DNA of 20,663 nt from Chloroflexota bacterium (GTDB lineage: Bacteria > Chloroflexota > Anaerolineae > Caldilineales > Caldilineaceae): the NCBI GenBank assembly GCA_003577005.1, contig QEUW01000283.1, forward strand, positions 1 through 20,663, read 5' to 3'. Within the stretch, counting starts at the first letter, position 1. Every line of letters begins with the position of its first letter. Below the pieces are notes generated by a model. It was not told where the DNA came from. It ran no database searches and saw only the letters and a list, made by a program, of their open reading frames with translations. Shown piece by piece: positions 1 through 10,362 of this stretch. A program made the translations under genes and the position numbers.

Positions 1-182
1 TCCCCCGCACCTCGGGGGAGTTGATCGCGATCTTCGACGCGGATCATGCGCCCTTTGCCGAGTTCCTGGACGAGCTCATCGGCTACTTCAACGACCCGCT
101 GCATGCTGCCTACGAATATGACGCCTTCGCCCGAAACTACTTCGGCGAGTACGCGCGCGTCAATTTCCCGCAGCGCCGCTGA
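1..182 (+). CDS. C-terminal end of an AP2-domain homing-endonuclease-like protein (partial)
   Basis: Open reading frame entering from the left edge and stopping at TGA 180-182. The last 30 or so residues (codons 81-170) read GYFNDPLHAAYEYDAFARNY followed by FGEYARVNFP. This fits the end of the AP2 DNA-binding domain found in phage-associated HNH homing endonucleases, whose usual pattern is a G-x-F-D strand, an AAxAYDxAA helix, then FGExAxxNFP. The upstream HNH part would lie outside the window. It is in the same frame as the downstream RecA frame, separated from it by two stops (180-182 and 198-200). The AP2 assignment comes from motif reading only; the segment before codon 81 matches less well. 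Confidence 0.55.
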   Translation, partial: PRTSGELIAIFDADHAPFAEFLDELIGYFNDPLHAAYEYDAFARNYFGEYARVNFPQRR

Positions 183-200
183 CTGCGATTTTCCCCGTAA

Positions 201-1337
201 CACCGTTCTATATTCGTTCCTCAGAGAACCATTCTCTGGAAGCCCATCACCACCTACGAACCTGCCGAGTTCTGGCCGACCGGATCGTTCGCCCTGGACT
301 GGTGCTTCGGCGGGGGTATCCCGAAGGGCCGCATCACACTGGTGCACGGCCCCGAAAGCACCGGGAAGACGACGCTCTCCCTGGTCATGTGCAAGGCCGC
401 AGTCAACCGAGGCGGCTACGTGGCCTACGTGGATGCTGAGCACGCCATCGATCCGCGATGGGCGAAGCGGTTCGGCCTGGACTTTGACGGATCGCAGCAT
501 TTCTTCCTGATCCAGCCCGCCAACGCCGAAGACGCGCTGAACGCGATCCTCAAGATGGTGAAGCTGCCGCATCCGGAGGACAAGTCACGCGGCCTCTTTG
601 ATGTCATCGTGCTGGACTCGGTGGCTTCGCTGGTCACGAAGGCGCAGCTTGCGGGCGAGGTCGGAGATCACGTTGTGGCAGGGGTTGCGCGGGCCATGAC
701 GCAGTTCTTGGCTAACGTTGCCAAGCCATTGGCCGAGAGCGACACGAGCCTCGTCCTGATTAACCAGGAACGGGACAACATCGGCGGCGGCACGTATGCT
801 TCGCCCATCCGTCTCCCTGGCGGGAAAGCGCAGCGGTACTACGCGACCATCCGCGCCGCGATGCGAAGCCAGGGCGAGGTATTCACCAACAAGGACGGTG
901 AGATCATCGCCCGCACGTTCCGGCTGAGCACAAAGAAGAACAAGGTATCCGAGCCGAACCGTGTAGCCGAGGTCAAGGTCTACCTGGACACAGGCGTACC
1001 GGACTACTTCGAGGAAATGGCCTCAATCGGGAAGGAACTCGGCGTGTTCACGCGGGAGAATGGTTCTCGCATCAAGGGCAGCGCGGCGTGGTACTTCAAC
1101 CGCGACGAGGGCATGGTCAAGGTCGGTGTCGGCGCGAAGCAGGTTGCGAACGCGCTGGACGAGGACCGGGAACTCGCCGCCGAGGTCGAGTCGGCCATCC
1201 GCTACGCCATCTCGCAGATGAACGAGATCAAGGTAGACCCTATCACCCTTTTGGAGTCAGACGACGAGGACGATGAGGCGGCTGAGGAAGCCTGGGCCGA
1301 AGGGTCGGGCGCTGCCGGCCTCGTCGAGTTGAGTTGA
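201..1337 (+). CDS. recA: RecA-family recombinase, 5' end lacking a start codon
   Basis: RecA ATPase for homologous strand exchange, probably phage- or plasmid-borne. The frame is open from 201 (after TAA 198-200). RecA-like sequence begins near 240 with PTGSFALD and GGGIPKGR. Walker A GPESTGKT lies at 348-371, Walker B-like DVIVLDSVASL near 600, and the L2-like INQERDNIGGGTY region follows. The C-terminus is acidic (SDDEDDEAAEEA), as is common in RecA. There is no ATG, GTG or TTG in this frame between 201 and the GTG at 342, which falls inside the P-loop strand and is too late to be a real start. The usual N-terminal helix of about 25-30 residues is missing. Either a rare start (ATT at 231) is used, the 5' part lies upstream of an intervening sequence, or the gene is truncated. 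Copies of the GAGAATGGTTCTC palindrome lie at 224-236 (inverted) and 1056-1068. Confidence 0.85.
   Translation, partial: HRSIFVPQRTILWKPITTYEPAEFWPTGSFALDWCFGGGIPKGRITLVHGPESTGKTTLSLVMCKAAVNRGGYVAYVDAEHAIDPRWAKRFGLDFDGSQHFFLIQPANAEDALNAILKMVKLPHPEDKSRGLFDVIVLDSVASLVTKAQLAGEVGDHVVAGVARAMTQFLANVAKPLAESDTSLVLINQERDNIGGGTYASPIRLPGGKAQRYYATIRAAMRSQGEVFTNKDGEIIARTFRLSTKKNKVSEPNRVAEVKVYLDTGVPDYFEEMASIGKELGVFTRENGSRIKGSAAWYFNRDEGMVKVGVGAKQVANALDEDRELAAEVESAIRYAISQMNEIKVDPITLLESDDEDDEAAEEAWAEGSGAAGLVELS
222..238 (-). promoter_or_regulatory. Palindromic repeat copy at recA 5' end
   Basis: CAGAGAACCATTCTCTG, with perfect 7-bp arms and a 3-bp centre. It is the only copy whose core (224-236) is inverted, reading GAGAATGGTTCTC on the minus strand. 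It lies just before the first RecA-like residues, where an operator would control or overlap initiation. In RNA it could form a 7-bp hairpin with a 3-nt loop. Confidence 0.8.
1056..1068 (+). repeat. Palindromic repeat copy inside recA
   Basis: Exact 13-mer GAGAATGGTTCTC within the recA reading frame, encoding part of RENGSR. An exact copy inside a coding region, matching the intergenic copies, argues for a protein-binding site and not a transcript-end hairpin. Confidence 0.8.
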
Positions 1338-1382
1338 GGCGCCTGTGATACCTGATAACACCGAAAGGAGCAGCATCAATCC

Positions 1383-1715
1383 ATGAGCAACTATCGTATT
1401 CCACTTGAAGTCCGACCTGGCATCACCCACATCAACCAGCTCCAACACGAGCAGCGTCTGCAGCTCCTCGCCGACCTGCTGCGCTTCTTCCAGACAGACC
1501 CAGAGAAGCCGGATACGCGTCGTCTACGAGAGACCTATGAGGACGCGCGCTTCAACGGCTATCCGACGAGCTTCCTGAAGACCCTGGTCGGCGCACTGGC
1601 GGCCTGTGGCCTGCTCGATCTCCCTCCGCACAAGGCAACCCGGGCGGCGGGCTATATCACCACGCGTGAAGGCTTGCTGGTGCTGGCGTTGTTCGAGAAG
1701 CGCCTGGCAGGGTAG
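1383..1715 (+). CDS. Hypothetical protein, 110 aa
   Basis: I do not recognise the family. It starts at ATG 1383, preceded by AAAGGAG at 1364-1370, a rather long 12-nt gap but the only good ribosome site. It lies 45 bp after the recA stop on the same strand, so co-transcription is likely. The product is soluble, helical and rich in Leu and Arg. The part around residues 60-110 (YPTSFLKTLVGALAACGLLD, then GYITTREGLLVLALFEKRL) has the rhythm of a winged-helix fold, which is a guess from pattern only. No cysteine pairs, signal peptide or membrane segment are visible. A hairpin follows 16 bp after the stop. Confidence 0.65.
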   Translation: MSNYRIPLEVRPGITHINQLQHEQRLQLLADLLRFFQTDPEKPDTRRLRETYEDARFNGYPTSFLKTLVGALAACGLLDLPPHKATRAAGYITTREGLLVLALFEKRLAG

Positions 1716-1731
1716 GGGGCTGACGACGTGT

Positions 1732-1768
1732 GCCAGAGGCCTGCATCGTCCTGGTGTGGGCCTCTGGC
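1732..1768 (+). terminator. Hairpin after the recA - 110-aa gene pair
   Basis: GCCAGAGGCC at 1732-1741 pairs perfectly with GGCCTCTGGC at 1759-1768 over a 17-nt loop. It sits directly downstream of the gene ending at 1715. There is no good T-run after it, so intrinsic termination is plausible but not certain. Confidence 0.45.
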
Positions 1769-2031
1769 TGGCATTATGAGGGCTGTGCGGGAGTGGGGCG
1801 GCACTAAAGCCCGTACCGAGAAAACTGCTCCAACGGAGGGTGACACAGAGCAGTGGTTGTCAATCGGCGTCAACCAGAAGATAGCTCTCAGCAACGACAG
1901 AGGACCGACTTCAAGGGAAGAACGAGTATGTCCCTGGCGGATCGGAGTGGTTGACACACAGTGCAGCATCAACCCCTGTGCCAACCCGGAGCGAGCTGTA
2001 TCCAGTTCGTGAGCGGAGAGGAAAGGTCCTG

Positions 2032-2566
2032 GAGAATGGTTCTCTGGACCAGGAGCGACTTCAATGGGGGAGAAGTTGGAAGGTATGGGAGATGTCGGGG
2101 GCCAGCATCGTTCCTGGTTGAAGCACAGTTGCTGGAGAATGGTTCTCTGAGCCAAGAGCGGCTTCAATCGAGTAGGGGGAGGGGAACGTGCTAGGCAGAG
2201 AACAACCTGTCTCTACCCCTTGTTGGAGCCAGCTCTTCCAGAGAATGGTTCTCTGAGCCCAAACGACTTGTCGGCCAGGGCAGGGAGCAAGCCTGAGGAG
2301 AGGATAGATTCCAGTGACCCGGTTGGAGTCCACTCGCTAGAGAATGGTTCTCTGTCCTGGAATGGGTGTCCCAGTCGAGAGCGGAGAACTGGCTGTCAGA
2401 TTGAGCTCGCCTGTGGTGTTCCAGGTGATGCTGAACCGCCGGTGCTTTGGAGAATGGTTCTCTGACCTGGCATGGACTCCAAACAGGGCAGGGGAGGGCA
2501 GCCATAGGAAGCAGTTCCGACCAAGTGCATCCCCCGTTGGAGCAGTCGACCTGGAGAATGGTTCTC
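2032..2566 (+). repeat. Array of six direct 13-bp palindromes, about 104-bp period
   Basis: Exact GAGAATGGTTCTC at 2032-2044, 2135-2147, 2241-2253, 2340-2352, 2450-2462 and 2554-2566. Successive starts differ by 103, 106, 99, 110 and 104 bp (mean 104.4), close to ten helical turns. All six have the asymmetric TGG centre in the same orientation and all continue as TCTCTG on the right. Four also carry a box GTTGGAG (GTTGAAG at the second site) 11-12 bp upstream (second, third, fourth and sixth sites). The DNA between units is otherwise not repeated. The spacing resembles centromere or iteron arrays bound by one protein along one face of the helix. Confidence 0.9.
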
Positions 2567-2582
2567 TGACCTGAACCAAGAA

Positions 2583-2629
2583 GCAACTCCCGCCAGGGGC
2601 GCTATGCCGTCGGCGGGAGAGCGAGTTGC
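2583..2629. terminator. Split inverted repeat downstream of the membrane-protein gene
   Basis: GCAACTCCCGCC (2583-2594) pairs with GGCGGG (2612-2617) and, after a 6-nt bulge, AGTTGC (2624-2629). It lies just beyond the stop of the minus-strand gene ending at 2644 and could end that operon. No strong T-run is present. It also marks the right edge of the repeat array. Confidence 0.4.
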
Positions 2630-2643
2630 CTGGATCGAGCCTC

Positions 2644-3027
2644 TCAAAAGGGCAGATCCGAGGTCGGGTAGGTCCGCCTGGTGTGGCGGACCTGGTCGTT
2701 CTTCGCCTTCCTCGGACTCTGTGGCTGTGAGAAGGCTGTTCGCTTCTCAAAAGGCCGACGGTTTGGCAGACGCTTCTTCGTTGGCGGTGGGGGCGGAGGA
2801 TTCAGCCGGCGGTTGAGATGTACTATGCCAAAGTACAGTGCCCCAGCGGCGACCACGACCCCCAGCAGGATGAACATTCCCTGACTGAAAATATCGGCGT
2901 GGTCGTAGGACCATTTCCCGGTACTCGCCCCTAGAAACGCATTGGCGATGATGAAGTAGGTGATGAAAGCGGCAATGAGGGAGAATTCGAGAAAGTCTTC
3001 CAAGAAGGACCGGTTTTTCTTTGACAT
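2644..3027 (-). CDS. Small membrane protein of unknown function, 127 aa
   Basis: Not recognised. The start ATG at 3027 has AGGA four bases upstream. Two hydrophobic segments are visible, about residues 14-34 (FSLIAAFITYFIIANAFLG) and 48-70 (SQGMFILLGVVVAAGALYFG). They are followed by a short linker with six prolines and a long basic cytoplasmic-type tail rich in Arg, Lys and Pro. It lies 54 bp downstream of the helicase gene on the same strand. A copy of the palindrome (3051-3067) falls in that gap, 23 bp before its start, so the gene may have its own controlled promoter. A basic tail on a membrane anchor could tether DNA or a replication complex, but nothing in the sequence proves this. Confidence 0.7.
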   Translation of the reverse strand: MSKKNRSFLEDFLEFSLIAAFITYFIIANAFLGASTGKWSYDHADIFSQGMFILLGVVVAAGALYFGIVHLNRRLNPPPPPPTKKRLPNRRPFEKRTAFSQPQSPRKAKNDQVRHTRRTYPTSDLPF

Positions 3028-3050
3028 ATTCCTTTTCTCTCCACTGACTA

Positions 3051-3067
3051 CAGAGAATGGTTCTCTG
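3051..3067 (+). promoter_or_regulatory. Palindromic repeat copy between helicase and membrane-protein genes
   Basis: CAGAGAATGGTTCTCTG, perfect 7-bp arms (core 3053-3065). It lies in the 54-bp gap between the helicase stop (3082) and the start of the 127-aa gene (3027), where an operator would control the downstream gene. Confidence 0.8.
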
Positions 3068-3081
3068 GCTATCTGGGCGCT

Positions 3082-4713
3082 CTAGAATGGAATGTGGATG
3101 TCGTTTCGATTGTCCGTGTCAGGTGCGGCGCGATTGCCGCCGTAGACCTCATCAATGATGGTCTTTAGCTGTTCCTGGCTTTGATACTCGATCTCCCTGA
3201 CCTGAAAGCGCCCGTTGATGAACTCTACTGGCACGAATCCCGTTTCGTCGTCGCTGCCCTTGATGACATGCAGCAAAGAGCGGCTGTGTAGCTGCCCGGC
3301 CTTGTGCTTGAAGATAGGCCGACCGAACATATCTACCTTCTGGACCACATTGCCATCGGCGTCTTTCGTGGTCACAATTTCCGAGTCCTCGGCGTAGTAG
3401 CGTTCTAGCCTCACGTACACCTGAGAGCGGTGTAGCGCCTTCTGACCGCCATACGGCATCAAACGGGTGCGGTAGTTGGCTTTCAAGTCATCCTGGGCGT
3501 ACAGGTACGTGTAGATGCCGAATTGCTGGCCGATCTCGTCGCGCAGGAAGTCCATGACAGCGGTGTGGTTCGCTACCATGCCATCACCATCTTTCTTGAG
3601 GCCCTCGCTTGAGATCAGGTCCAGGTAGTCGTAGTGGACGACCAACTCACGCCCATTCTGATATGCCATTGCTGCGCGCTGCGCGATCTCGGCGGCGATC
3701 TGGGCGGGTGTCCAGCCAGTCGCGTGAATGAGCCAGATGTTGCCCTTTTCCTCGCTCATGCGCTTCACATGGGCTTTGAACTCATTGAGCGCCCTTTCCC
3801 AACGCGGGTCTTTCAGGGAGAAGGTTCGGGTTTGCTTGGGATCGGTGATCTTCCCAGGCTTGCGGAAGTCCACGGGCAGCAAGCTGAAACGGTGCGCCAG
3901 CAAACGATCCAAGATGCTCTCCGTGTATTGCTCGAAGTGCATCAGCGCCACGTCATACCCCTGCGTCCACGCCTGATGCAGCGCCATCAGCAGCGCCAGC
4001 GTGGACTTGCCGTAACCAGTCTTGGCCGAGATAAGGGTGATGTCGCCCTTCCTGCCGCCAGCAATCATGCGATTGAGGCGCGGCCAGGGTGTCTCCGGCC
4101 CGACTGAGCCTTGCGACTCCAATCGCGCCTCGCGCTCGGCCAATATTCTCTCTTGTCGAGCAAGGTTTTCTTCCAGCGGATTGACGAAAACACGAATCCG
4201 CTGCGGCGCGGCTTCCATCATACGCTCAAGCATCGCATTGTAGACCTCGATGTTGCTGCCGAAGTTCTTGGTTGCGATCTCAAGCGTGTCGCGGCCTGCC
4301 GCAATCAGGTTGGCAGACACAATCGCGTCACTTAGCGCGGTGGACAGGGCGCTCACACGCACAGCGTCCGGCGCGTCTTCGATGGCGCGGAAGGACATCA
4401 GCCGTTCCATACCGCGCTCAGCTTCTTCCCGGCCAAGCTCCAATAGCAGGCGGGGCATGATGTTCTCTTTGGTCGGCGGCAGACCTTCCTCGACTGCCGT
4501 GTAGATCATGCGGAGAACGGTTCTCGCAAACTCCAAGTCGGGGTTGTCCGTCTTGGGGAAGGTCTTGGGCGTCAACCGCGCCTCACCCATCAGCGGCAGG
4601 TTGTTCTCCGGTCCAATCAGGTTTGCCACCAGCGACATCGCCAGTTCGATAGCCTCTGGCGAGGTCAGGTTGGCGATCCGCTTCTCGTGGTAGTTCCCGT
4701 TATTCCTGCTCAT
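3082..4713 (-). CDS. DnaB-like replicative helicase
   Basis: 543 aa. The C-terminal half is a RecA-fold helicase core with Walker A SAKTGYGKST at residues 229-238, an LMHFEQ segment after the first strand, a Walker B-like ELVVHYDYLDLI strand, and a YAQDDLK segment where DnaB proteins carry their sensor residue. A charged, coiled-coil-like linker (about 180-205, EENLARQERILAEREARLES) separates it from a helical N-terminal domain, as in DnaB. It would unwind the fork as a hexamer. ATG 4713 lies inside the last codons of the upstream initiator gene (14-bp overlap), indicating translational coupling. DnaB family membership is clear; the N-terminal half is divergent, as expected of a phage or plasmid helicase. 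A near-copy of the palindrome lies at 4513-4525. Confidence 0.85.
   Translation of the reverse strand: MSRNNGNYHEKRIANLTSPEAIELAMSLVANLIGPENNLPLMGEARLTPKTFPKTDNPDLEFARTVLRMIYTAVEEGLPPTKENIMPRLLLELGREEAERGMERLMSFRAIEDAPDAVRVSALSTALSDAIVSANLIAAGRDTLEIATKNFGSNIEVYNAMLERMMEAAPQRIRVFVNPLEENLARQERILAEREARLESQGSVGPETPWPRLNRMIAGGRKGDITLISAKTGYGKSTLALLMALHQAWTQGYDVALMHFEQYTESILDRLLAHRFSLLPVDFRKPGKITDPKQTRTFSLKDPRWERALNEFKAHVKRMSEEKGNIWLIHATGWTPAQIAAEIAQRAAMAYQNGRELVVHYDYLDLISSEGLKKDGDGMVANHTAVMDFLRDEIGQQFGIYTYLYAQDDLKANYRTRLMPYGGQKALHRSQVYVRLERYYAEDSEIVTTKDADGNVVQKVDMFGRPIFKHKAGQLHSRSLLHVIKGSDDETGFVPVEFINGRFQVREIEYQSQEQLKTIIDEVYGGNRAAPDTDNRNDIHIPF
4513..4525 (+). repeat. Variant palindrome inside the helicase gene
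   Basis: GAGAACGGTTCTC, one base from the consensus, giving perfect 6-bp arms around a single central G. It encodes part of FARTVLRM on the minus strand. It may be a bona fide binding site or a chance near-match. Confidence 0.5.
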
Positions 4714-6028
4714 CGGTGTCTGCGCTCCTTTCGGTTTCGTCTACCGTGCTCTTCTGCATAATTTCTTCTAACGACAGCATCCCAGGCAGTACAGTGGCTG
4801 GTCTGCCATCGTCAACGAACTGCGGCACGACCCCTTCATCAGGCTGAGGCACATAGGACTCGGCGTCGAGACGCTCCAAGTGCTTCTGCGACTCGCGCCA
4901 CTTGTAGAACTCCTTGAGATTCAAGTCCGTGTATTTCATCGTAACGGCGCTAACCAGCTTGTCGCGTGCGATTGGCGTGCTTGTACCCTGACGCCCGCGC
5001 AGGAACGGGTAAACAACTCGCTTCAACCACTTCTCCATGAGTGGCTCAGCGTCAAACAGATCGTTGGGCGAGACGGTGATGTACTCGCCATTGGTGTGGT
5101 AGAAGCTGACCTCGGTCGCCAGTGCTTCGGCTTGCCTGGCGGTCAGTGTCTTAGTCTGTGTTCGTTCGGGGATGTTTGCTCCCGTGTTGGAGAGTAGGAC
5201 CAGGAACTTACCGAGCTTCGACAGGCTGGCGTAGCTTATGTTCTTGTCGCGCTTGGAGGTCTTCTTTTTGTTAGCTCTAGCTCGTGGGGTTGAGAGTGAC
5301 TCCTGAGTCTTGGATTGCTCTGTTGAAGCTGTTTTTGATTCCAACCCTCTTGAAGCTGACTCCGCCGCGTCCGCGTTAGCGGCGTCGGCGGGATCACTTT
5401 TTGATGTGTCTATGTGGTTGTTTCTGTTATAGGTCGCAGGGAAATCACCATTCCCGAAGCCGGACTTCCCGTCTTCCGAACAGGGGATTTCCCGTTCCGT
5501 GTGCTTGTCCCACTCTAGAATCGCGTTGGTGAGGAGCTGCACATTCAGCTCGAAGCGAAGGACGTTGTCTGCTTCGCGCCAGTACGCTACCAGGTGCTGT
5601 CGGTTAAGTAAGATGGTCTGGTGTTTATTTCGCTTGTCGGGATCGAGGCCGAATTCCGGTACTGCATCACTCAGAATTTGGGAACGATCCTTTTTTCGTA
5701 CTCGCGTGGCAATTTTTTTTAGCGCTTGGTGATACTCATCTTCGCTGAAGCCTAGCTCCTCAACCCAACTGTCTCCCGGGCGGTACAAAGAGTGGAGTTC
5801 GTCTTTACTTGGTGCGACGAACTTGTAGAATGGTTTTCGTCCCATTGTGACAAAACGGAACACGATCTGCTGTAGGAGAATCGCTGCGTTCACGTCTCCT
5901 ACCAGGTGTTTCAGGATAGGGCGGTAGGTGATTTGGGAGTGAGATTTTGCTCGAAGCAATTGGAAGAGAGGATCGTCATTGTAGTCTGTTACTGGACGAC
6001 CATTCTTCCGTGTTGAACCTGAAGCCAA
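4700..6028 (-). CDS. Winged-helix replication-initiator-like protein
   Basis: About 442 aa from a TTG at 6028, chosen because AAGGAGG lies 6-7 bases before it; a GTG at 6055 would place that ribosome site inside the gene. The N-terminal segment (NAAILLQQIVFRF, GRKPFYKF, GDSWVEELGFSEDEYHQALKKI) has the pattern of the winged-helix domain in phage and plasmid replication proteins related to DnaD/RepA-type initiators. A low-complexity linker (ADAANADAAESASRGLESKT) and a lysine-rich stretch follow, then a second helical domain. It overlaps the DnaB-like gene, so the pair probably act as initiator/loader and helicase of one replicon. Two palindromes of the same geometry precede it (6076-6092 and 6270-6282). 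The initiator role is inferred from fold pattern and neighbour. Confidence 0.7.
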   Translation of the reverse strand: MASGSTRKNGRPVTDYNDDPLFQLLRAKSHSQITYRPILKHLVGDVNAAILLQQIVFRFVTMGRKPFYKFVAPSKDELHSLYRPGDSWVEELGFSEDEYHQALKKIATRVRKKDRSQILSDAVPEFGLDPDKRNKHQTILLNRQHLVAYWREADNVLRFELNVQLLTNAILEWDKHTEREIPCSEDGKSGFGNGDFPATYNRNNHIDTSKSDPADAANADAAESASRGLESKTASTEQSKTQESLSTPRARANKKKTSKRDKNISYASLSKLGKFLVLLSNTGANIPERTQTKTLTARQAEALATEVSFYHTNGEYITVSPNDLFDAEPLMEKWLKRVVYPFLRGRQGTSTPIARDKLVSAVTMKYTDLNLKEFYKWRESQKHLERLDAESYVPQPDEGVVPQFVDDGRPATVLPGMLSLEEIMQKSTVDETERSADTDEQE

Positions 6029-6075
6029 GGGTCTCCTCCTTAGTATGCTCTTCACTGTGCTAGCAATTGCATTGT

Positions 6076-6092
6076 TGGCTCTGGGAGAGCCA
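6076..6092. promoter_or_regulatory. 17-bp palindrome upstream of the initiator gene
   Basis: TGGCTCTGGGAGAGCCA, perfect 7-bp arms around a 3-bp centre, about 48 bp before the TTG start. It has the same arm length and centre as CAGAGAATGGTTCTCTG but a different sequence, so it may bind a different or autoregulatory protein. Confidence 0.55.
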
Positions 6093-6269
6093 GACAGCGC
6101 GAAGCCATTCTACAGGAAGATTTGGAGTCCCAAGGCAAAATAGGGCAGAAATCACCAGATATTTATAGAACTCTAACGCGAAGGTACTGGATAACCGACG
6201 CGCTTACCGAAATGGCGTGGTTGTGTTGCTCTTCCTGGCCAAGATACGTCAAAACGGCCTGCTGACGCG

Positions 6270-6282
6270 GAGAATGGTTCTC
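6270..6282 (+). promoter_or_regulatory. Rightmost palindromic repeat copy
   Basis: Exact GAGAATGGTTCTC, 88 bp before the antitoxin-like start and about 240 bp before the initiator start. No further copies are found to the right, so it marks the edge of the repeat-bearing module. Confidence 0.8.
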
Positions 6283-6552
6283 TACGGTTCGTTGGGGCAG
6301 TATAAATCAAAAAGGGTGGGGTGGTAGAATCAAGACACAGATTGTGGGGAGAAATCGTATGGCTGACGTACCAGAACAATCCATCAAGGATGTGGTGACC
6401 GACTTCCTCGCCTCCGGGCCATCTGTTGACGACCTTATTGCCTATTGCCTGCCGGAGACGCTACAAGAACGCGCGCAATACCTGCTGGACAAGAAACGTG
6501 GTGAGGGGCTGACTCCAGTCCAACAGCAAGAGATGGACGAGTTTCTGCAGAT

Positions 6553-6569
6553 GAACTGGTTCAAACTTT
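6553..6569 (+). repeat. Left terminal inverted repeat of the IS
   Basis: GAACTGGTTCAAACTTT, matching the reverse complement of 7470-7486 except at position 7. Confidence 0.9.
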
Positions 6570-6628
6570 TGCAATCAACGGGAGATAGTGCATCATGGGA
6601 GAAAAAACCTCAGCAAAGGTGAAATCCC

Positions 6629-7478
6629 ATGAGCACTATCCCCACCAGTGTAACTGAAGAGCAGTTCAACGCCCATATCTTGCCCTATCTGAGTACGGCC
6701 AAACGTGGGTTCGTATGCCAAATCCCGCTGTACAAGGTCTTCAACTACATCCTGTACCGGCTGCACACAGGGTGCCAGTGGCGGCAGCTACCGATTGCCC
6801 CGGACCCGAACGACCCGAAAAAAAGAAATCAGTTGGCAGGCGGTGTACTACCACTTTCGCAAATGGAGCGCCGACGGGAGTCTGGAGCGGGTCTGGCAGG
6901 CCAGCATTCAAACGGTACGGGCCGACCTTGACGTGAGCGAGTTGAACCTGGATGGCAGCCATGCCCTGGCCAAGAAGGGTGGTGAGAGTGTGGCCTATCA
7001 GGGTCGCAAGCGCGCCAAGACCAGCAACATCCTGCCCCTCATGGATGCCAACGGCTACATCCTGGCTTCGACAGGCATCATTGCGGGCAACCACCATGAC
7101 GCCTTCAACCTGCAGACCCATCTCCAGGCTGCTTTCAAGAGCATGAAGCGCTTGGGACTGACCATCGCCGGGGCGTTTTTCAACGCTGACAGTGCCTTCG
7201 ACACCCGTGAAGCCCGCCAGGTCTGCTTCAACCATGGCTTGATCCCCAACATCGCCGAGAACAAGCGCAACCGCAAAACCCCCAAACGTGGGCGCAAACG
7301 TTTGTTCAACGCTGCGGTTTACAAGCATCGCTTTGCTACCGAACACAGCTTTGCCTGGGTCGATAAGTTCCGAGCTTTGCTCATCCGCTTTGACCGTAAG
7401 GACGCCCACTTCCTGGGTGCTCACCATATCGCATTCGCTATGATCAACCTGCGCCATGTTCTTGCACAGAAAGTTTGA
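6629..7478 (+). CDS. IS5-family DDE transposase, two overlapping frames
   Basis: Cut-and-paste transposase. ATG 6629 with AAAGGTG upstream opens frame one, whose N-terminal domain (LPYLSTAKRGF, YILYRLHTGCQWRQLP) is typical of IS4/IS5-type proteins. After seven As and a G (6818-6825) the homology continues one base further on (KEISWQAVYYHFRKW) and runs to 7478. The catalytic triad is visible as LNLDGS, then FNADSAFD, then ATEHSFAW. The joined product would be about 282 aa, a normal size. Joining needs a +1 (or -2) shift, or loss of one A by slippage. Several IS5 groups use such A-run frameshifts, but a simple one-base insertion that inactivated the gene is equally possible. Confidence 0.9.
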
Positions 7479-7486
7479 ATCAGTTC
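7470..7486 (-). repeat. Right terminal inverted repeat of the IS
   Basis: AAAGTTTGAATCAGTTC, partner of the left end at 6553-6569. It contains the transposase stop codon. Confidence 0.9.
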
Positions 7487-7546
7487 GATTGATCACCTTA
7501 TGGCGCTTGTCAAAGCCAAAGCCCGGCTCAAACGGCTGGGGCGTGC

Positions 7547-7972
7547 GTGACGTATATCCCCGCAAATCTTCGCCGTCTCGTCATCGCACGGGCCGGTGAT
7601 TGCTGTGAGTATTACCGTGTCGGACAGGCCGGCCGCGTCATCGACTTTGCCGTGGATCACATCATTGCTGAGAAACATGCCGGCCCGACTGAGGCAGACA
7701 ACTTGTGTTTGAGTTGCTACTGGTGCAACAGTCACAAAGGCAGCGATATCAGTTCAGTAGACTGGGATGGGGCAGGGGAGGTCACGCCGCTGTTCAATCC
7801 GCGGAAACACGACTGGGCTGACCACTTTCAGCTTCGTGGCGCGATCATCCAACCTCTGACGCCAGAAGGGCGCGTGACAGCTCGGTTGCTACGTTTCAAT
7901 GATCCTCAGCGGATTTTGGAGCGCGAGATGCTGTTGCGGCTCGGCGAGTATCCCTGTCAGCCTCCCGAATAA
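7547..7972 (+). CDS. HNH endonuclease, possible toxin of a split pair
   Basis: 141 aa from GTG 7547, which overlaps the stop of the antitoxin-like gene. The HNH pattern is clear: VDHIIAEKHAG (His strand), EADNLCLSCYWCN (Asn helix with Cys-x-x-Cys) and NSHKGSD. The PLFNPRKHDWADHF and TPEGRVTARLLRFNDPQRILE blocks are typical of a family common in cyanobacteria and Chloroflexota. The first zinc knuckle, normally CEYC, reads CEYY, so one ligand seems lost. With the upstream partner split by the IS, the nuclease may now be uncontrolled, unexpressed or inactive. The transposon could also supply read-through transcription. The toxin role is an inference from pairing. Confidence 0.85.
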   Translation: MTYIPANLRRLVIARAGDCCEYYRVGQAGRVIDFAVDHIIAEKHAGPTEADNLCLSCYWCNSHKGSDISSVDWDGAGEVTPLFNPRKHDWADHFQLRGAIIQPLTPEGRVTARLLRFNDPQRILEREMLLRLGEYPCQPPE

Positions 7973-8100
7973 GCGTCGCGGTGGGATGGCTCGGGGACAC
8001 GGCGAAGGACGCGCGGTGCTGCAGGCGACCCCCTATTCTGTTCGTTCATACAGCACCCGGGCACTATAGCTGCTGCACTGTGCCTTCAACTCAGGCGGCA

Positions 8101-9249
8101 TCATTGGCTCTTGCGCTTCTGGCGATAGCGCTTGACCCGCCCCCGCGTGCTCGCCCGATCACGCTCGCGCTCGTATGCGCGCCTGCATTCGTCGCTGCAG
8201 AGTGTCGGCGCCCGACCAGGATAGCGGCGAAGTGTCACCACGCGACCACACTGCTTGCAGACGATGGTGTATTCCTTCATCGGCATTTCACGGCGGTGCG
8301 TCGGCGTCTCCACTGTAACGGTTATCTTGCTCATCTGTGCCGTATCATCGTTTAGAATATCGCGCTCAAACTCAGTGAGTTCTTTGTCGCCGAGCCGGGT
8401 GAGGTCACTCAGCGCGTTTCGCCGCGTGTCAAAGATGAAGTACTCGGACAGTGAACCGAGCGGATAGCGTGCTTCCCGGTAGCGGTGCGTGAAATAGAGT
8501 TCGACGGCGCCGCGGTGACGCAGCGCGCGCAGCGGTTCGATCTGCACATCGCCGAGCTGCGCCGACAAGTCGTGCGTGATCTCGACCAGTCGCTCAGCCA
8601 GCGGGCGCATGGTTACGCCGATCTTGTACAGCTTGCCCGCCGCGTGGCTAATTTCGAGAAAATACAGCGAGCACAACAGCACGCGCCGCCATTGGGCGCG
8701 GTACAGTCGCAGGTCCGTAACGGCTATCTTGTGTGTCTCACTCTCTGGCTGCGCGCGCTGGACGTTGTACTCAAGCTGGTCATGCTTTTGCTTGATTAAG
8801 CCGTCCTGAATGGCAGCGAACGAGGCGAGCGACACCTCGCCGAACGGAACCCGGCCGAGCGGCGTCAACTCGTCTTGCCGTGACCACTCGTTGTAAGTTA
8901 TCAGCCCACGATCTTTCAGCCGACGAAACACACGCGCATTGTGCCAGCCATAGTTCCGCGCCGCGCTAGGAGCGATCGCGTCGTGGAACCCCTGGAGCAC
9001 TTCCCACTCCCGGCCGGAGAGGTTGAGGCCAAAGCGATCATACGCAGGTAGCGCGATCACATCGTCAGCACGAGCGCTAGGCTGACACGTCGCGCCTGCA
9101 TGCGCGAAATGGTGTGCTACTCGCTGCCCTTTGCGTGCCAGAAGCGCACCACCACAGTAGGGGCATATCACGTCCGTGAGCCTTCCGCGGCCTACCTGGT
9201 CAATGTAGACCAATTCACCAGCCGAGTTGACGCCATAGGGCAGAAGCAT
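8101..9249 (-). CDS. Predicted nuclease: CoiA-like zinc ribbon plus T5orf172 (GIY-YIG-like) domain
   Basis: 382 aa, ATG 9249 with GAGG six bases upstream. Residues 29-55 hold CPYC, then RKGQRVAHHFAH, the pattern at the front of CoiA-like competence proteins. The middle (about 70-165) is helical and winged-helix-like, with GLNLSGREWEVLQGF and RRLKDRGLITYNEWSR. Residues about 195-275 (LYKIGVTMRPLAERLVEI, then GAVELYFTHRYREARYPLG) match the T5orf172/MUG113 domain, a GIY-YIG relative. The C-terminus carries a second four-Cys cluster (CKQCG, then CSDECRRAYERERDR) and a very basic tail. It stands alone on this strand between the HNH gene and the recombinase. Function is unknown; DNA processing or defence is plausible from domains and location. 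Confidence 0.75.
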   Translation of the reverse strand: MLLPYGVNSAGELVYIDQVGRGRLTDVICPYCGGALLARKGQRVAHHFAHAGATCQPSARADDVIALPAYDRFGLNLSGREWEVLQGFHDAIAPSAARNYGWHNARVFRRLKDRGLITYNEWSRQDELTPLGRVPFGEVSLASFAAIQDGLIKQKHDQLEYNVQRAQPESETHKIAVTDLRLYRAQWRRVLLCSLYFLEISHAAGKLYKIGVTMRPLAERLVEITHDLSAQLGDVQIEPLRALRHRGAVELYFTHRYREARYPLGSLSEYFIFDTRRNALSDLTRLGDKELTEFERDILNDDTAQMSKITVTVETPTHRREMPMKEYTIVCKQCGRVVTLRRYPGRAPTLCSDECRRAYERERDRASTRGRVKRYRQKRKSQ

Positions 9250-9383
9250 AGCAGCCTCAAAAGCAAGATAGCCGTTACATGTCAGGATAGCACAGAAAAT
9301 TGGGTTACGTGTGAACGTGCGCCCGTTATGTTACAGCGTGCGACTGGCTTGGAGTCTTCCTGTCAATGGCAGAGCACAGCGGA

Positions 9384-10362
9384 TCAGCCATAGCGCACCC
9401 GACCTGCCTTGCGGCGCTGGCGCGCGTCAACCGAAACAGCATAGTTGTCGAGGGTTGTGCTGGCGTTCTCGTGGCCCAGTTGCGCCTGAACGTGGTGAAC
9501 GGCGTCACCAGTGGCGAGCAGTTCGGTTGCAAGCGTTCGGCGCAAGTCGTGCGGTTTTAGGTGGCCGAGTCCGGCTGCTTTGGCCAGGCTGGCTACCACC
9601 CGCCAGATGGTGGTGGTATCTACCGGCCGATCTCCCGTAAACACGCCCCCGCGCCGTACCCTGACCACGACATAGTTGTATCCGGGCGGCTGTTCTCGCT
9701 GCCAGGCTTTGAGTGCCTCTAACGCTGCCTGCGAGTAGATGGCGGCCTCGCGGGCCTTGTCGCCTTTGCCATGCCGCACCGTGATGACCCCGTTCGCAAA
9801 GTCAATGTCACGCCAGCGGAGGGCGGCGAGCTCTGCTCGGCGTAGTCCGGTCAGCAGCAAGGTTGCCACAATCGCGTAATCGCGTTTGGCCTTGATGCGT
9901 TCGTGGTCTTCGGCCTCTGCGACCCGGCGTTGGGCTTCGCGCAGCAGGCGATCCGCTTCGGCCGGTGAGAGCGCCCGGCGCTGCCGCTCCTGTCCGGTGT
10001 CGGTTGCCGCGTATTTGGACTTGAACAGCTTGAGGCTGTCGTAGGCGGCCTTGCGGAATGGATTGCCCGGGTCGGCGATCGCTGCCACTTCAGCGAGCTT
10101 GCGCAGCGCGGACAACCGCCGCTGTTGAGTTGATTTTGAGCCGGGGGTAACGGTCAGGAAGTCGCGCACGGTCGAGAAGTTCAGATCGAGCGGGTCAATC
10201 CCGACGCTCTGTGCATAGCGCAGCCAACACCCGCGCGCTGGACGGCGCCACCATGCCAGGCACGGTGGGATCGTCCGGCGCGATCATCTTGACAAGCTGG
10301 TTGAAGGCCTGCGTGCTTTCAAGCGCGTTGAATGGGGCATTTGTCAGGGCGTTTTCGTTCAC
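9384..10362 (-). pseudogene. Tyrosine recombinase/integrase with a frameshift near 10225
   Basis: The catalytic domain is intact, with Arg in GLRRAEL, Lys in HGKGDKAR, HDLRR, LGHENAST and the tyrosine in TLDNYAV. The N-terminal SAM-like domain starts at GTG 10362 (VNENALTNAPFNALESTQAF) and continues to SSARV. The homologous continuation WLRYAQSVGIDPLDLNFSTV is one frame over. Removing one T of the GTGTTGG (minus strand, about 10224-10228) restores a single frame of about 325 codons. Without the shift, only the shorter frame from about 10169 remains, lacking most of the arm-binding domain. This is either a sequencing error or a recent inactivation. It would catalyse integration or excision of the accessory region. 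Confidence 0.85.

Follow-up and report, generated by a model that had tools for sequence, protein, structure and literature searches.

A short palindrome dispersed over the replication module of a probable plasmid or phage-plasmid assigned to Chloroflexota

In several described systems one protein acts at many short DNA sites. KorB of the IncP plasmid RK2 recognizes the O_B site, which is given as 16 bp (PMC11790492). The centromeres of plasmid F (SopB/sopC) and of the phage-plasmid N15 are described as short inverted repeats within longer units, either clustered or scattered, and P1 parS is said there to contain two different repeats (PMC5016525). The stoperators of mycobacteriophage L5 are asymmetric sites that point in the direction of transcription, and the protein binds them as a monomer (PMC9283540). 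Here we describe a 13-bp palindrome recurring in the left third of a 20,663-bp stretch of DNA assigned to a Chloroflexota bacterium; this stretch, which appears to be an entire contig (QEUW01000283.1), is called the window. Its left third is a replication module, with a recA reading frame and a 110-amino-acid gene on the plus strand, and a 127-amino-acid gene, a helicase gene and an initiator gene on the minus strand. The module belongs to a mobile element, probably a plasmid or a phage-plasmid. To our knowledge, dispersed operator-centromeres are known from few replicons.

The sites in the window are inverted repeats, clustered or scattered, as in centromere-operators of the KorB/ParB type. 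They resemble O_B, whose short palindromic copies are dispersed over a plasmid and serve both gene silencing and partition, and the cooperating small protein KorA with its site O_A could parallel a second box found here. They differ from O_B in sequence, and in that six sites here are clustered in noncoding DNA and two are intragenic. Compared with the SopB systems, the array looks clustered as in F, while the outlying sites look scattered as in N15; however, the repeat unit is about 104 bp, while the sopC repeat of F is 43 bp, and the sopC sequence is, as far as we know, unrelated to the palindrome. P1 parS also combines a palindromic box with a second, different box, but it is a single locus around an IHF site, and no ParB was found among the 21 frames of the window that were scanned with Pfam (101 open reading frames (ORFs) of at least 60 amino acids are listed). 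The L5 stoperators are likewise many 13-bp sites at promoters and between genes, bound by one protein, whereas the sites described here are near-palindromic, and 10 of 11 face the same way even though recA and the helicase gene run in opposite directions. Of the parallels to KorB operators and L5 stoperators drawn in a sequence-only reading of this DNA, the general idea of one protein at many sites fits; the near-palindromic form of the sites and their indifference to the direction of transcription argue against stoperators.

Palindrome sites and the composite array

A pattern scan of the window identified ten exact copies of GAGAATGGTTCTC, which start at 224 (inverted), 1056, 2032, 2135, 2241, 2340, 2450, 2554, 3053 and 6270, and one copy of GAGAACGGTTCTC at 4513. 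All of them lie within 224-6282, while the remaining 14.4 kb contained no copy. The ten copies and the near-copy at 4513 are thus where the sequence-only reading had placed them, and the 7-bp arms around a 3-bp centre, which it had noticed at three copies, were seen at 224, 2241 and 3053. Its claim that the copies are far above chance was borne out by shuffling, as 13 matches were observed with up to two mismatches, while the mean of 100 shuffles was 0.47 and the maximum was 3. These 13 matches correspond to the eleven sites, to site 4513 counted again on the opposite strand, and to a match with two mismatches at 5826 in the initiator gene, which is regarded as chance. The pattern GAGAANNNTTCTC with up to one mismatch gave 12 matches against a mean of 0.63 expected; the twelfth, at 1818, was left out, having one mismatch and an unrelated centre. 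The sequence data support a placement of the palindrome that is non-random and tied to the replication module. The earlier description of the copies as lying between recA and the initiator holds as regards their confinement to the module, but the span is slightly wider, because the recA frame carries the copy at 224 at its 5′ end and the copy at 6270 is upstream of the initiator gene.

Six of the copies form an array in a noncoding stretch of about 1.72-2.64 kb, on which the recA and helicase operons converge. The spacings in the array are 103, 106, 99, 110 and 104 bp (range 99-110, about 104). The palindrome is often accompanied there by a second box, GTTGRAGY, which was found 8-18 bp upstream of 7 of the 11 array sites in the window (4 of 6) and in a related locus, L006, described below (3 of 5). 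The gaps between GTTGRAG and the palindrome are 8, 10, 10, 10, 10, 11 and 18 bp. When the box was placed at random in these regions 20,000 times, seven box-site pairs were never obtained (the best, six, occurred once), and the largest count in 2,000 dinucleotide shuffles was one. The array and its boxes in the window are as follows.

2032..2566, plus strand, six-copy palindrome array, noncoding, between the convergent operons; copies at 2032, 2135, 2241, 2340, 2450 and 2554
2117..2124, plus strand, second box GTTGAAGC, 10 bp before palindrome 2135
2222..2229, plus strand, second box GTTGGAGC, 11 bp before palindrome 2241
2322..2329, plus strand, second box GTTGGAGT, 10 bp before palindrome 2340
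2536..2543, plus strand, second box GTTGGAGC, 10 bp before palindrome 2554

The five other sites lie singly at or within genes of the module.

222..238, minus strand, 5′ end of the recA reading frame, 17-bp palindrome with 7-bp arms around a 3-bp centre, identical in L006
1056..1068, plus strand, intragenic palindrome in recA, inside the 8-residue insertion FTRENGSR
3051..3067, plus strand, palindrome of 17 bp in the gap from the stop of the helicase gene to the start of the 127-amino-acid gene; L006 has a C-form counterpart at 814-826
4513..4525, plus strand, C-form palindrome inside the helicase gene, from the pattern scan
6270..6282, plus strand, palindrome in the intergenic region from which the initiator gene and the ORF at 6359-6622 diverge

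Both intragenic sites are spelled in rare codons. When the amino acids are taken as given and the codon usage of the module is applied, the probability is 0.0015 that ENGSR is spelled as the motif found at 1056, and 0.00027 that ARTVL is spelled as the one at 4513. The insertion FTRENGSR is missing from all 9 of the other RecA-like proteins compared, from which L077, which yielded no frame, and L067 were left out; the insertion is undatable, because the compared proteins are just about 31-39% identical.

As single-stranded DNA the array folds better than its shuffles (z -3.3; none of 100 shuffles was equal), and the palindromes themselves may cause this excess. Of two terminator-like sites in 1-6700, neither falls on a palindrome, and no Rfam family reached its gathering score in the window. 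A G-rich word, CAGGGCAGGG, follows some array sites (2276 and 2484 in the window; 1954 of the reverse complement of L006), and the plus strand of the array has a G skew of 0.17-0.19 in the window, and of 0.17 and 0.06 in L006.

A related locus with a shifted site sequence

The related locus comes from a scan of GTDB genome contigs in which the helicase alignment was used together with two peptide patterns; 164 stretches matched a pattern, and one locus, L006, was confirmed. It is a 4,293-bp contig in a 4.4-Mb bin named Armatimonadota, and as a single short contig it is possibly misplaced in that bin. L006 is syntenic with the window from recA to the C-terminus of the helicase, with about 84% DNA identity in two aligned blocks. 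The initiator was not found in its bin, where the DNA upstream of recA is found only on the L006 contig itself.

L006 contains eight sites, of which three plus two are in the array region, one is before the counterpart of the 127-amino-acid gene, and two are in the recA frame. Its six sites outside recA are GAGAACGGTTCTC, the C-form; in one of these six the centre base is on the opposite strand. The eight window sites outside recA and the helicase gene (the array, 3053 and 6270) are GAGAATGGTTCTC, the T-form. The two sites in the recA frame have the T-form in both loci, and the helicase site of the window has the C-form. The C-form is a dyad with 6-bp arms around one base (GAGAAC-G-GTTCTC), and the T-form is the same dyad broken at one position. 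All 19 sites of the two loci show complementarity at positions ±2 to ±6, while positions ±1 are complementary only in the seven C-form sites. The YGG sequence is on one common strand in 10 of 11 window sites and in 6 of 8 L006 sites, regardless of gene direction, and only 13-17 bp are common to all copies. Such a linked shift between T and C at one base is expected if a binding protein changed along with its sites. The change from T to C at ±1 completes the dyad of a duplex, whereas in a hairpin whose loop has 3 bases this position could not pair, and we therefore prefer the view that the palindrome acts as a duplex-DNA site rather than as a structure.

The two arrays preserve the spacing of their sites but not the sequence between them. 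BLASTN aligned nothing between the window array (1881-2538) and L006 except a 23-bp match of a single site, and yet the distance between sites stays near 100 bp in both arrays. Inside the array of L006, at 1511-2026, there is an Imm5-like immunity gene (Pfam E=1.3e-37), with three array sites on one side and two on the other; the window array has no such gene.

The sites in recA are in a different situation. The tract around 222-238 consists of 207 bp identical in the two loci (window 107-313), running to the end of L006, and that around 1056 of 176 identical bp (996-1171), including 58 codons without a silent change. In the recA comparison as a whole the codons are identical at 260 of 313 positions with the same residue. 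The 58-codon run may reflect recombination or constraint. Together with 3423-3878, these tracts are identical or nearly so amid the overall identity of about 84%, and the alignment makes a mosaic exchange between the two elements possible.

The palindrome is largely restricted to the module also in the bin of L006, where 12 matches were found with up to one mismatch, 8 of them on the module contig of 4.3 kb; the remaining 4 are as many as the reversed control gave. The pattern GGAGAAYGGTTCTCTG occurred in 3 of 291 genomes of the phylum of L006, at two places on the module contig and once in each of two others, while its reversed control occurred twice in the same genomes. As the matches outside the module are at the level of the reversed control, the genomes searched do not carry the palindrome as a chromosome-wide word of the HIP1 or REP kind. 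Copies scattered over the host chromosome at similar density, which the sequence-only reading had named as evidence against a link to the replication genes, were therefore not seen in this bin, to which L006 may have been wrongly assigned, or in its phylum.

Possible functions of the sites

We tentatively favour the reading that the palindromes are the binding sites of one dimeric, element-encoded DNA-binding protein, for which the array nucleates assembly and the outlying sites control replication genes, although we place it a little short of probable. The dimeric protein would assemble on the six-site array between the convergent recA and helicase operons, and the array, with its 13-bp palindrome often paired with GTTGRAGY, would be a centromere-like or silencer core. 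The single sites (at the recA start, in recA, before the 127-amino-acid gene, in the helicase gene and in the initiator intergenic region) would serve to silence or tune the replication genes, so that gene control would be coupled to maintenance of the element through the same protein. We infer the protein binding of the sites, the single dimer and this coupling from the site pattern. The array is located where operons converge rather than at a promoter. A centromere or silencer core accounts for this location better than simple operators do, and the location and the intragenic sites together speak against the sites being just a set of promoter operators. The 110-amino-acid winged-helix-like protein encoded beside the array is the first candidate for the binder, and a ParB/KorB-like or phage repressor gene past the left end of the contig is the second. 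In its narrower form, in which a small winged-helix protein, encoded beside its own composite-site array, would act as centromere or silencer core and, by way of operators within and between genes, as governor of a phage-type recA-helicase-initiator module without a classical ParB, the proposal is distinctly doubtful; if true, it would be a previously undescribed maintenance system. Compared with the known dispersed operator-centromeres, the new features would be the composite two-box array, the intragenic sites in rare codons and the phage-like module; the noncoding sites change sequence in step, and the element is poorly sampled.

Several points limit the favoured reading. It is based on two DNA loci, and the pair of sites in recA adds no independent evidence, because they lie in tracts identical between the window and L006. 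The statistics of the GTTGRAGY box overstate the case, since the box was chosen after the sites had been inspected and the array units may share descent. No relative of ParA, ParB/KorB or SopA/SopB was detected among the scanned frames of the contig, which is incomplete, and hence membership in the KorB/O_B or SopB systems cannot be claimed.

The replication genes themselves suggest two other explanations. In one, which is possible but rather unlikely, the palindromes are iterons to which the O-like initiator binds with its N-terminal winged-helix domain. The array would then be an origin or a locus of copy control, and the initiator would be titrated or handcuffed by the outlying sites. The usual spacing of iterons is about 20 bp, while these sites are about 104 bp apart; the array is not A+T-rich (A+T content 0.38-0.44 in 200-bp windows starting at 2001-2501, versus 0.47-0.52 in those starting at 5601-6501); the module contains no match to the DnaA-box consensus; and sites within recA and the helicase gene are unexpected for an origin. 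Site spacing, the array's G+C content and the missing DnaA-box match argue against a standard iteron origin, but binding of the initiator is still compatible with them. The other explanation, which appears unlikely, is phage immunity, in which a lysogeny repressor encoded past the contig end would bind dispersed stoperators and block transcription of the early replication genes. The UvsX-like RecA, O-like initiator and DnaB-like helicase do resemble a phage replication module, and the sites are found within genes as well as between them, and in a divergent intergenic region. However, L5 stoperators are asymmetric and transcription-oriented (PMC9283540), while here near-palindromic sites have the same orientation on one strand in 10 of 11 cases. 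Moreover, none of the scanned frames was recognized as a phage structural gene, relatives of the helicase were found neither in viral contigs nor in phage records, the initiator has none in phage records, and recA has only 24% and 31% matches in viral contigs.

The palindromes could also be seen as traces of DNA movement. If a recombinase acted on them and the array were a place of cargo exchange, the presence of the Imm5-like gene between sites 1425 and 2148 of L006 would be explained, as would the recA frame cut off near palindrome 222-238 without a usual start codon. We consider this very improbable, because two sites are intragenic and in rare codons, the module contains no recombinase (the tyrosine recombinase at 9384-10169 is across an insertion sequence), and noncoding DNA accepts cargo without a special site. 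Spread of a mobile palindromic repeat within the element, similar to repetitive extragenic palindromic (REP) sequences or Rickettsia palindromic elements, is the least probable explanation and in our view has hardly any chance of being correct. It would agree with the location of one recA copy in an 8-residue insertion missing from the 9 compared proteins, but the part common to all copies is merely 13-17 bp, the other 14.4 kb of the window contains none, the copies in the L006 bin are concentrated on the module contig, and the linked change from T to C argues for a sequence that is read.

Genes of the module and wider searches

The genes of the module are listed below.

237..1337, plus strand, RecA/UvsX-like recombinase frame (Pfam RecA E=4.5e-53; PHROG UvsX-like E=1.6e-60)
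1383..1715, plus strand, 110-amino-acid protein, candidate binder, adjoining the array, with weak winged-helix resemblance
2644..3027, minus strand, 127-amino-acid protein with two hydrophobic segments by eye, probably membrane-spanning; the L006 counterpart has 126 amino acids
3082..4713, minus strand, DnaB_C-type helicase of 543 amino acids (Pfam DnaB_C E=2.6e-10)
4700..6028, minus strand, O-like replication initiator of about 442 amino acids (PHROG O-like E=0.0068); ORF listed to 6055

The recA frame has upstream stops at 180 and 198, and no ATG, GTG or TTG before 342; the nearest in-frame candidate is ATT 231, within the palindrome. The N-terminal part of other RecA proteins is missing from this frame, and L006 is alike in all these respects. 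Since L006 starts only at window position 107, a rearrangement or a contig-end effect is possible; before recA, 1-98 is a fragment weakly similar to a family 2 glycosyltransferase (Pfam E=0.013, under the cut-off). RecA was matched in 1782 phage and 1029 plasmid records, in every case at less than 60% identity. The models of the 110-amino-acid protein and of the initiator gave no Foldseek match at E<=0.001. Pfam assigned no family to the initiator, and none at E<=0.001 to the 127-amino-acid protein. The initiator model was poor overall (mean predicted local distance difference test score (pLDDT) 51.7), and in its only usable part, the N-terminal region, it appears winged-helix-like. The initiator probably starts at TTG 6028, judging from the preceding ribosome-binding site GGAGGA and from close homologues, which start there. 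Its homologues P0009-P0013 share the C-terminal half with window 4700-6028 while their N-terminal domain is different, a sequence pattern that suggests domain swapping of the DNA specificity of the initiator.

Searches beyond the two loci returned few relatives. Megablast of window 1-10000 against plasmids and phages gave no match, and tblastn found the helicase in neither phages nor plasmids and the initiator not in phages. The initiator had three weak N-terminal matches in plasmids, two of which, in Ilyobacter and Cupriavidus, are proteins without a name that lie among genes for conjugation or pili; the match in Cupriavidus is also near a ParA gene. In viral contigs the helicase alignment had no match and recA only the two noted above. 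The helicase alignment matched 29 of the 291 genomes of the L006 phylum, outside the L006 contig only with E of 2.3e-12 or worse, and these weaker matches are presumably the cells' own DnaB. Ten other homologues of the helicase are 87-97% identical. Homologues of the 110-amino-acid protein, the helicase or the initiator are carried by contigs of 32.4 kb (P0037), 17.9 kb (P0039), 13.3 kb (P0002) and 10.9 kb (P0029). The exact two-copy array pattern was absent from viral contigs, and the search for the composite pattern GTTGRAGY-N8-18-palindrome returned none. The 17-mer CAGAGAATGGTTCTCTG was found once in each of 5 contigs, which is about chance level by a rough estimate. A relaxed pair of GAGAANNNTTCTC gave 40 stretches, which were judged unrelated, as their copies mostly had other centres (GAGAATGATTCTC, GAGAATCATTCTC). 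In the open-access literature, four spellings of the 13-mer led to no bacterial operator paper, as judged by title and the start of the abstract, and nothing joined plasmid replication initiation in Chloroflexota with palindromes.

A P-type ATPase in the right half of the window matched at least 5000 plasmid records at less than 60% identity, which is uninformative on the host. To the right of the module the window also carries a small ORF, an insertion sequence, HNH and CoiA-like genes, the tyrosine recombinase gene and genes of metal-resistance type.

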